DNA from: Desulfobulbaceae bacterium
GTDB taxonomy: Bacteria > Desulfobacterota > Desulfobulbia > Desulfobulbales > Desulfobulbaceae
Assembly: GCA_011391865.1 (NCBI GenBank)
Contig: JAABPV010000009.1
Location: forward strand, 1-53,319
DNA length: 53,319 nucleotides
Reading direction: 5' to 3'
Made by a program: the position numbers and the translations under genes. Positions within the stretch are counted from its first letter, which is position 1. Every line of letters starts with the position of its first letter. Shown here piece after piece: positions 4,933 to 7,337 of this stretch. The notes beneath the pieces were generated by a model that saw nothing but the letters and a program-made list of their open reading frames with translations, was not told the DNA's origin and ran no database searches.

Positions 4933-6486
4933 ATGAAAACAAAGACGTTTTATCTTCTCTTTTTTGTACTGTTTATCTCCTGGTACCCCGCATTGGCCTC
5001 AGCATCGTCACAAATTGCAGCTGGAGGAAATCACGCTGTTGTCATAAGACCTGACGGCAGCCTTTGGATTTGGGGAGAAAATACATCCGGCCAACTTGGT
5101 GACGGAACGACAACACCCAAAGATAGAGCTGTCAAAATAGATACTGCTGTCTGGAAGCAAGTGGCTGCCGGAGAATCGCATACTTTGGCGATAAAAAAAG
5201 ACGGCACTCTTTGGGGATGGGGATTCAACCAATATGGACAGCTTGGTGATGGCACATGGAACAACCAGTCTCGTCCCGTGCGGGTCGGCAGTGCCAACAA
5301 TTGGCTGTCGGTGGCTGCTGGAGCTGCGCATTCAGTAGCGGTAAAGACTGACGGCACCCTCTGGGCTTGGGGGGTTAATTTTTCTGGGCAGCTCGGCGAC
5401 GGGACCACTGTCAATCGGAACCTTCCGTTCCAAATTGGAACAGCGTCTGACTGGCGGGCCGCTGCTGCCGGAGAATCTCATTCCTTGGCTGTCAAAAGTG
5501 ATGGCACGCTTTGGAGCTGGGGAGACAACCAATATGGACAGCTTGGTGACGGGACAACAGTGCAGCGGGAGAAGCCAGTGCGGGTTGGCGGCGCATCAAG
5601 CAACTGGCAGACAGTGACCGCCGGGTATTCGCATTCTTTGGCGATAAGGACAGACGGCACGCTCTGGACTTGGGGAGACAACCAATACGGACAGCTTGGT
5701 GACGGGACAACTGAACGAAAAAACAAGCCGGTTCAGATCAGTACTGCATCTTGGCAGTCTTTGGCCGCTGGCCGTTTCCATGCTGCGGCAGTGCGGAGTG
5801 ACGGCACTCTTTGGACTTGGGGATACAACGAATATGGGCAGCTTGGTGACGGAACAAGAACGAATCATAGTGCTCCTGTTCAGATCGGAACCGCCGCCAA
5901 CTGGCAGGAAGTAGCAGCAGGAAAGTATCATGTTGCGGCATTGCAAAAGGATGACACGCTCTGGACTTGGGGATATAACAATTACGGGCAGCTTGGAGAT
6001 GGAACGGCAGAGTTAAAAAATTTGCCTGCGCAGATCAGCATAGTTAGGCAATATATTGATCATGGCGACGGCACGATAGCCGACAAGAAAACCGGCTTGA
6101 TGTGGAAACGCTGTTCAGAAGGTTTGTCCGGTGTGAACTGCGAAAAGGGCGTGGTGGAAAAATATACATGGGATAATGCGGTGAACCGTTTTAAAAATGT
6201 TGCATACGCAGGTTATTCAGACTGGCGGCTGCCAACCTTTGATGAATTGAAGACCTTGGTCTCTTGCAGCAAGGGGCAAAATGAACGCGGCTGGTGCAAT
6301 GATGGCTCAGAAAAACCAACGATCAACCAGCAGGCTTTTCCGAATACTGAGTGGAATTATTGGTCCGGGTCGTCCTTTGCTGACGGCTCGTCCTCCGCGT
6401 GGTACGTCGATTTCTTCCTCGGCGGTTCCGATGCCTACTTCCGCACCTTCCACTTTGAGGTTCGGTTGGTGCGCGGCGGACAGTGA
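4933..6486 (+). CDS. Exported RCC1-repeat protein with diversified DUF1566/C-type-lectin-like C-terminus
   Basis: 517 residues. A signal peptide (MKTKTFYLLFFVLFISWY...ASA) is followed by seven RCC1-like repeats with the core SDGTLWTWGxNxYGQLGDGT (about residues 28-365), which should form a beta-propeller. Residues ~375-517 are a DUF1566 (Lcl C-terminal) domain: DGTIADKKTGLMWKR, the conserved YSDWRLPTFDEL, and a terminal WSGS...VRLVRGGQ. That ending is typical of diversity-generating-retroelement target proteins, where the C-type-lectin fold displays hypervariable residues. The protein is probably a cell-surface or secreted binding protein. No reverse transcriptase or Avd gene is in the window, so any retroelement would act from elsewhere. 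Confidence 0.9.
   Translation: MKTKTFYLLFFVLFISWYPALASASSQIAAGGNHAVVIRPDGSLWIWGENTSGQLGDGTTTPKDRAVKIDTAVWKQVAAGESHTLAIKKDGTLWGWGFNQYGQLGDGTWNNQSRPVRVGSANNWLSVAAGAAHSVAVKTDGTLWAWGVNFSGQLGDGTTVNRNLPFQIGTASDWRAAAAGESHSLAVKSDGTLWSWGDNQYGQLGDGTTVQREKPVRVGGASSNWQTVTAGYSHSLAIRTDGTLWTWGDNQYGQLGDGTTERKNKPVQISTASWQSLAAGRFHAAAVRSDGTLWTWGYNEYGQLGDGTRTNHSAPVQIGTAANWQEVAAGKYHVAALQKDDTLWTWGYNNYGQLGDGTAELKNLPAQISIVRQYIDHGDGTIADKKTGLMWKRCSEGLSGVNCEKGVVEKYTWDNAVNRFKNVAYAGYSDWRLPTFDELKTLVSCSKGQNERGWCNDGSEKPTINQQAFPNTEWNYWSGSSFADGSSSAWYVDFFLGGSDAYFRTFHFEVRLVRGGQ
6355..6480 (+). other. Candidate DGR variable region (VR)
   Basis: Codons 475-516 of the RCC1/DUF1566 gene. Between W477 and the final VRLVRGGQ, no codon ends in A. 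Most end in C (NNC such as TCC, TTC, TAC, CGC, ACC, CAC) and the rest in T or G, and adenines are scarce. This is the footprint expected when AAC/AAT codons of an adenine-rich template are randomised at A. The G/C-rich end (GTGCGCGGCGGA) just before the stop is where an IMH-type sequence would sit. No template repeat was found by eye in this window. Confidence 0.6.
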
Positions 6487-6577
6487 TTTTGTCTTTTTTG
6501 CTTTTGCACGAGCACGGAGGCGGCAAAGGTATCTATGATGGCTTTCAAGCATGGACTCAGCCATCAAGCACAAATTT

Positions 6578-6640
6578 CTGGAACTTCATTTGGAAGAAGC
6601 TGTATCAAGCAAGGTTGTTCAGCTAACTGCCAATAAATAA
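6578..6640 (+). pseudogene. Truncated duplicate of the 3' end of the 6746 gene
   Basis: Encodes LELHLEEAVSSKVVQL followed by TANK and a stop, nearly the same as the end of the intact gene 363 bp downstream (6941-7000). Similarity continues about 12 bases past the stop. The 5' part of this copy is missing. It is a local duplication remnant. Confidence 0.75.
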
Positions 6641-6745: not shown

Positions 6746-7000
6746 ATGACAATGCAATCAGATATGGTAAATTTAGTCCTTGAAGGCATTCCAGACGCAG
6801 AGGTAAAAGTACTTTATCGAAGCCGAAGTGATGAGATTCCTCCACCTGTTTACGAGGGAAAAATAGGGGCGGACGGTTTTTTGAAAATCATCGTTCCTCG
6901 CGCATACTTGGTTGTCATCGGCTGCCATCAGACCATCCCGCTGGAACTTCATTTGGAAGAAGCTGTATCAAGCAAGGTTGTTCAGCTTAATGCCAAATAA
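6746..7000 (+). CDS. Small beta-rich protein, unknown function
   Basis: 84 residues from the first ATG; an internal ATG at 6752 has better spacing from the GAGAG upstream and is an alternative start. The sequence (VNLVLEGIPDAEVKVLYRS ... PPPVYEGKIGADGFLKIIVPRAYLVV) reads like a short Ig-like or carboxypeptidase-regulatory-like beta sandwich, with the 'G-A-D-G' turn common in such domains. No signal peptide. It lies downstream of the RCC1/DUF1566 gene and next to a truncated copy of its own 3' end. Function unknown. Confidence 0.65.
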   Translation: MTMQSDMVNLVLEGIPDAEVKVLYRSRSDEIPPPVYEGKIGADGFLKIIVPRAYLVVIGCHQTIPLELHLEEAVSSKVVQLNAK

Positions 7001-7046: not shown

Positions 7047-7337
7047 TCACTCGACTGCCGTCCCGGCCTTGTCCGCCAGCGGGCGCACGGAGACGAACCA
7101 TTGCTTGGAGGTGGTCGGCTCAATCACCGTGGCGCAGCGGTAGCATTTGCCCACCGCGTGCTCGTAGTCGTCGATCTTCACCAGCAGACCGCGCTCGTCC
7201 ATCACCTTGACCCGCTCCAGATTGTGGCGGATGCCGATCTCGTAGTCGTCGCGGTCGTGCGACGGCGTGACCTTGAGCGCGCCTGTGCCGAAGTCGCGCT
7301 GCACATAGTTGGAGAGCGACCCGCCGCGTTCTTTCAG
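7047..7337 (-). pseudogene. Internal fragment of valyl-tRNA synthetase
   Basis: On the minus strand, YVQRDFGTGALKVTPSHDRDDYEIGIRHNL and CYRCATVIEPTTSKQWFVSVRPLADKA match the editing-to-catalytic-core region of ValS (family: FGTGAVKVTPAHD and RCKTVIEP...QWFV). Only about 95 of the ~900 residues are present; it ends with TGA at 7047 and its upstream end abuts the stop codon of the dehydrogenase gene at 7334. It is a displaced fragment, presumably from recombination. The functional valS must be elsewhere. Confidence 0.8.

Follow-up and report, generated by a model that had tools for sequence, protein, structure and literature searches.

The window, by which we mean the whole 53,319-nucleotide stretch of DNA that was analyzed, carries a gene encoding a 517-residue protein in which seven RCC1 repeats are followed by a C-terminal Lcl_C (DUF1566) domain, as assigned by Pfam. 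The features considered here, together with the basis on which each was assigned, are as follows.

4933-6486, forward strand: RCC1-Lcl_C target gene, 517 amino acids (open reading frame, translation, Pfam)
5008-6012, forward strand: RCC1-type beta-propeller, approximately residues 26-360 (Pfam WD40_RLD and seven RCC1 stretches)
6070-6474, forward strand: Lcl_C / DUF1566 domain, residues 380-514 (Pfam PF07603, 100.9 bits; genome search)
6358-6477, forward strand: variable region (VR) of a diversity-generating retroelement (DGR), 18 hypervariable codons with a family-wide third base of C or T (column base counts, third-base test, independent template repeat, composition)
6460-6499, forward strand: IMH-like sequence closing the VR at its 3' side, GTTCGGTTGGTGCGCGGCGGACAGTGATTTTGTCTTTTTT; target type, with GGACAG in place of GGAAAG (alignment of eight VRs, ends in intact DGRs)

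The target gene and its protein

The VR occupies the 3'-terminal part of the gene, ending a few codons short of the stop, and falls inside the Lcl_C domain as delimited by Pfam, which is the position expected of DGR targets. The DUF1566 domain has been reported to adopt a C-type-lectin fold and to be the commonest Pfam domain among DGR targets (PMC6642488). AlphaFold models of the window protein reached a pLDDT of 50 for the whole protein and 47 for the Lcl_C domain, values too poor for a reading of the fold, and no solved structure matching the Lcl_C domain by sequence was found. The predicted N-terminus resembles a signal peptide; by analogy with DGR-diversified lectin tips on effector proteins, the RCC1-Lcl_C product probably acts as a secreted binder, its tip having been selected for a single ligand.

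The DNA just 3' of the gene contains a 56-nt direct repeat (6578-6633 and 6941-6996, 96% identical), apparently a duplication of the terminal (3') part of a small gene. Beyond it, a valyl-tRNA-synthetase-like fragment, read by eye on the minus strand (7054-7306), adjoins an ELFV dehydrogenase gene; its counterparts in congeners are two separate pieces, which suggests that this spot has been rearranged.

Composition of the variable region

Adenine accounts for 8 of the 117 nucleotides (7%) in the 39 codons from 6361 to 6477, which directly precede the terminal Gly-Gln, as against 26.5% across the remaining gene. Specifically, 39-codon windows elsewhere in the gene contain a minimum of 17 adenines (median 32), and a count as low as that of the VR is reached by 0.12% of 117-nt windows taken across all 53 kb. 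The third bases of the 39 codons are C in 22 cases, G in 10 and T in seven, with no A; the codons ending in G are conserved ones.

These values agree with a first-pass annotation of this DNA, made by a model from the sequence, which had described an adenine-depleted C-terminus between two retained flanks, YSDWRLP and VRLVRGGQ, both of which are present in the translation. Its count of about 30 codons between the flanks must be corrected to 39, of which approximately 18 are hypervariable. Its description of codons ending in C, T or G holds insofar as third-position A is absent, but is better put as randomization of positions 1 and 2 with only C or T at position 3. Similarly, the extent that it gave, 6355-6486, does enclose the VR at 6358-6477, but conserved DGR-type sequence continues beyond 6486 to approximately 6499.

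An adenine-directed pattern across the VR family

The window VR was compared with approximately 37 relatives from its own genus (g1) and a sister genus (g12), making up a family of approximately 38 VRs; column base counts were taken from 26 ungapped VRs, and a third-base test was applied to 17 complete domains. Throughout the 26 ungapped VRs, hypervariable codons are interleaved with conserved ones, and positions 1 and 2 of the hypervariable codons take all four bases, while at the third base T predominates in columns 7, 18, 23, and 33 and most columns have C. Across the 18 hypervariable columns of the 17 complete domains, the third base was C 227 times and T 77 times, and A and G did not occur (C or T in 304 of 304). 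When pairs of codons encoding different amino acids were considered, the third base was the same in 87% of pairs within the VR vs. 30% at variable flank codons (17 domains), figures that are descriptive since the pairs are not independent. Taken together, a third base fixed as C or T and randomized positions 1 and 2 match the outcome expected of AAC and AAT template codons under adenine-specific mutagenesis.

Independent templates and the IMH

A degenerate template pattern was derived from the VR family before any Lcl_C template repeat (TR) was known, and this pattern was used for searching; the template inferred from the VRs contains TGGTCCGGGTCGCCGAATGCTAACAACTCGGACAACGCGTGGTACGTCAATTTCAACAACGGCAATTCC... 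Lcl_C-type TRs were recovered in ten genome contigs and six viral contigs, mostly adjoining a reverse transcriptase (RT) with the DGR motif. One such TR, adjacent to a DGR RT in CAIQZX010000196.1 (locus L120), reads ...TAATGCTAACAATAGTAACAATGCGTGGATCGTCAATTTCAACAACGGCAATTC... and is closely like the template deduced from the VR family. Compared with this TR, the window VR shows differences at 34 of 41 A positions and at 16 of 76 non-A positions (Fisher p 7e-11). Additionally, the order contains complete VR-TR-RT loci with Lcl_C in families other than that of the window (L139-L142).

The IMH-like sequence of the window is conserved beyond the stop codon in its siblings, as seen in the alignment of eight VRs. 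The window and most sibling VRs carry the end GGCGGACAG, vs. GGCGGAAAG in the TRs of most intact Lcl_C DGRs; likewise, VRs end in GGCGGACAGTGA and the TRs of most intact loci in GGCGGAAAGTGA, with the window showing the VR form. A search for a hairpin or cruciform 3' of the VR found none beyond what shuffled sequence gives (z -0.5 and -1.2). To our knowledge, such a structure downstream of the VR is not universal among DGRs.

Judged by its sequence, 6358-6477 is a true DGR variable region, the grounds being the column pattern of the family, the match to an independent template, and the IMH of the target type. The earlier proposal of A-to-N mutagenic homing from an AAC/AAT-rich template is thus borne out by both the family of approximately 38 VRs and the comparison with an independent TR. 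It could be argued instead that no DGR was ever involved and that ordinary positive selection, combined with codon bias, drove the divergence of the lectin tip; Lcl_C domains, as binding modules, are variable, and the VR of the window is short when taken alone. We consider this very improbable, however, because third bases are fixed for each column (T in four, C in the others) though the encoded amino acids are very different, because the variable flank codons share so much smaller a proportion of their third bases (the 30% given above), and because real templates match and the noncoding sequence 3' of the stop codon is conserved.

Paralogs, architectures, and the host group

The genome to which the window belongs encodes two close Lcl_C paralogs, on contigs C5 and C52, both of which are fused to a caspase-C14 domain and have a signal-peptide-like start, as well as five further, more distant Lcl_C copies. 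Repetitive low-complexity DNA, evident from repetitive ORF translations, lies 3' of both caspase-Lcl_C genes (L002, L003). Among 74 genomes of the taxonomic family searched, additional copies occur almost only in the window's own genus and the one sister genus, and the caspase-C14 plus Lcl_C architecture was present in all 10 of the sister-genus or congener proteins scanned. These caspase siblings may couple binding at the tip to proteolysis.

No RCC1 match carrying Lcl_C was found among the frames read in 258 genomes of the order, with up to five candidates scored per genome, and from these sequences the RCC1-Lcl_C fusion looks unique to the window gene within the order. The first-pass annotation had remarked that an RCC1 propeller, here of seven repeats by Pfam, is uncommon in combination with a diversified tip.

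As to the identity of the organisms, enolase is absent from all five g1 genomes and present in the sister-genus genome G064. Published work describes Candidatus Electronema as lacking enolase (PMC10030654) and the closed genome of Candidatus Electrothrix scaldis as encoding it (PMC10926707). Since the enzyme is missing in g1, as published for Candidatus Electronema, we infer that the organisms are cable bacteria and that the window species is Electronema-like.

Absence of the retroelement from the assembly and of an Lcl_C template from the relatives

The assembly containing the window comprises 87 contigs at 95.2% completeness. Neither BLAST nor a pattern search allowing 3 mismatches found a template repeat in it, and the same two approaches found no Lcl_C template in 12 relatives from g1 and g12, single-contig genomes included. 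The assembly contains no DGR-type RT; its sole RVT_1 match (contig C75, L013 868-2445) is a DRT2 defence RT, scoring 447 bits to Drt2, and a search for bAvd gave no match. An RT on contig C63 of G057 is similar in appearance to this DRT2-type RT.

The absence of RT and Avd, first noted for at least 46 kb downstream, therefore extends to the whole assembly, and the genome-wide search for an A-rich template that had been proposed beforehand returned none. The first-pass annotation had held that the want of such a template anywhere in the genome would refute its reading. No template was indeed found, but DGR origin is not thereby refuted, as the VR may have lost its retroelement and the question of origin is decided by the relatives and by real DGRs elsewhere. 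The alternative that it had put forward, of a target orphaned or served in trans, is supported, and the absence of an Lcl_C template reaches the close relatives too.

DGR-type RTs were recognized in the twelve other g1 and g12 genomes, two in G065 (L052/L077 and L078) and one in G060 (L060/L076), by a survey that left out five RT matches of G059. The loci concerned (L077 7440-10161 and L078 of G065; L076 of G060) are intact DGRs with RT, TR, and VR and with targets of other lectin types, and Avd adjoins those of L077 and L076. They were rejected as the source of an Lcl_C template because their own templates serve those other lectin types. The other RTs of the sister genus were rejected as DGR RTs, being mostly of group II intron or retron types; an RT fragment in G061 was set aside for its position at a contig edge and an end like that of a group II intron maturase, and a short TR-like match in G063 proved to be mnmG. 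Finally, no carrier of a template for the VR family was found in phage, plasmid, and viral collections.

A frozen orphan or a target served in trans

We think it probable that the window VR is a frozen orphan receptor allele of a DGR target whose retroelement has been lost. Under this model, a DGR RT that misreads template adenines would have made an error-prone copy of the template-repeat RNA, and the resulting cDNA would have replaced the end of the C-type-lectin-like Lcl_C domain by way of the IMH at 6460-6499, randomizing the presumed ligand-facing residues at the tip of an RCC1-propeller protein that is probably secreted. The VR would now persist as an orphan (frozen) allele, inherited and also passed between paralogs when whole blocks are exchanged.

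Two observations argue for a frozen state. The window VR differs from every other VR at a minimum of five non-A positions. In addition, the VR on contig C52 of the same genome, with approximately 150 bp upstream (L003 ~1600-1930), is nearly identical to a gene of the congener G054 (L089 ~5150-5470), vs. approximately 79% identity over the remainder of the two genes, which points to exchange of a block without mutagenesis.

In the sister genus, two VRs of G063 (L016, L033) and one of G065 (L018) agree without exception at the 78 non-A columns and at third bases (36 of 36); they differ at 20-24 A columns, and 70-77% of their flank third bases are shared. Identity at non-A columns combined with differences at A columns marks these VRs as recently homed from one template, which is absent from the assemblies of both G063 and G065. 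It follows that absence of a template from an assembly is no proof of inactivity, and the sister genus likely drew on a template source that is mobile or has been lost, while the window may have done so too.

The sister-genus VRs are also an argument that the window VR is still being diversified in trans, by a TR and RT that would be carried by some element such as a plasmid or phage, or would lie at a strain-variable locus outside the assemblies. The intact IMH of the window and the documented remote or trans targets of Thiohalocapsa (PMC10907252) fit with this, but the window's own genus contains no pair of differing VRs that would fit a common template without non-A differences, and the phage, plasmid, and viral collections yielded no carrier; on balance, we judge continued diversification in trans unlikely. 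A further consideration against a frozen VR is that, in an assembly of 87 contigs, a DGR of 2-3 kb may have been missed, either because it falls in a gap or because its replicon was left unbinned. Such a complete chromosomal DGR, acting in cis or in trans from an assembly gap, would be compatible with the 95.2% completeness and with the tendency of DGR loci holding several near-identical repeats to break short-read assemblies. It is less probable still, given that the single-contig genomes G059 and G064 carry such VRs yet contain no Lcl_C template, and that these two genomes score 96% completeness, such that 95% is near the ceiling for the group. The frozen orphan remains our preferred reading. 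More speculatively, diversification may have been outsourced, with the caspase- and RCC1-linked lectin repertoire of filamentous, probably cable, bacteria having no resident DGR and being renewed in trans by a DGR, mobile or extrachromosomal, that passes between species, alongside block exchange among paralogs; we hold this to be a minority possibility.

Relation to known systems

DGRs with DUF1566 (Lcl_C) targets resemble the window in domain, VR position, AAC/AAT-type template, and IMH. In those systems, however, TR and RT adjoin the target, while neither is present in the assembly of the window gene, in which an RCC1 propeller precedes the domain on the N-terminal side. Orphan or remnant targets are also known: Treponema denticola isolates without the core DGR (PMC4891356) and the partial DGRs of DUSEL4 Nanoarchaeota (PMC4372165) have, as the window does, genes with an adenine-directed VR but with neither an RT nor a TR at the locus or genome-wide, and whether such targets are fossils or are served remotely was already asked in those studies. 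In contrast to these orphans, the VRs described here form a large paralog family that spans two genera and includes single-contig genomes.

The conflict-system sensors of Thiohalocapsa PB-PSB1 (PMC10907252) likewise share a C-terminal lectin-like VR on effector domains; caspase-like effectors and beta-propeller proteins occur within the same systems, and some of the targets are served in trans. Thiohalocapsa PB-PSB1 differs in having nine DGR loci, with targets that are STAND, vWA, CHAT/TIR, and FGE proteins and not caspase-C14 or RCC1 fused to Lcl_C. The DGR-diversified lectin tips on such effectors have been proposed to act as antigen sensors of multicellular bacteria (PMC10907252).

While DUF1566 DGR targets and orphan VRs are already known (PMC4891356, PMC4372165), the papers searched included none combining DGR with RCC1 or DGR with cable bacteria, and within that literature the RCC1 fusion and the two-genus, mostly caspase-fused orphan family appear to be new. 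DGR targets thereby gain a beta-propeller (RCC1) protein, along with a set of paralogs, most of them joined to caspase-like peptidases, that bear clear DGR marks at their tips in genomes without a template. Should the proposed assignment to cable bacteria hold, the family would provide a link to the hypermutated sensors proposed for multicellular bacteria. Moreover, two sister-genus species whose VRs fit one unseen template perfectly give a concrete case in which to ask if an orphan VR is a fossil or has a source acting in trans.
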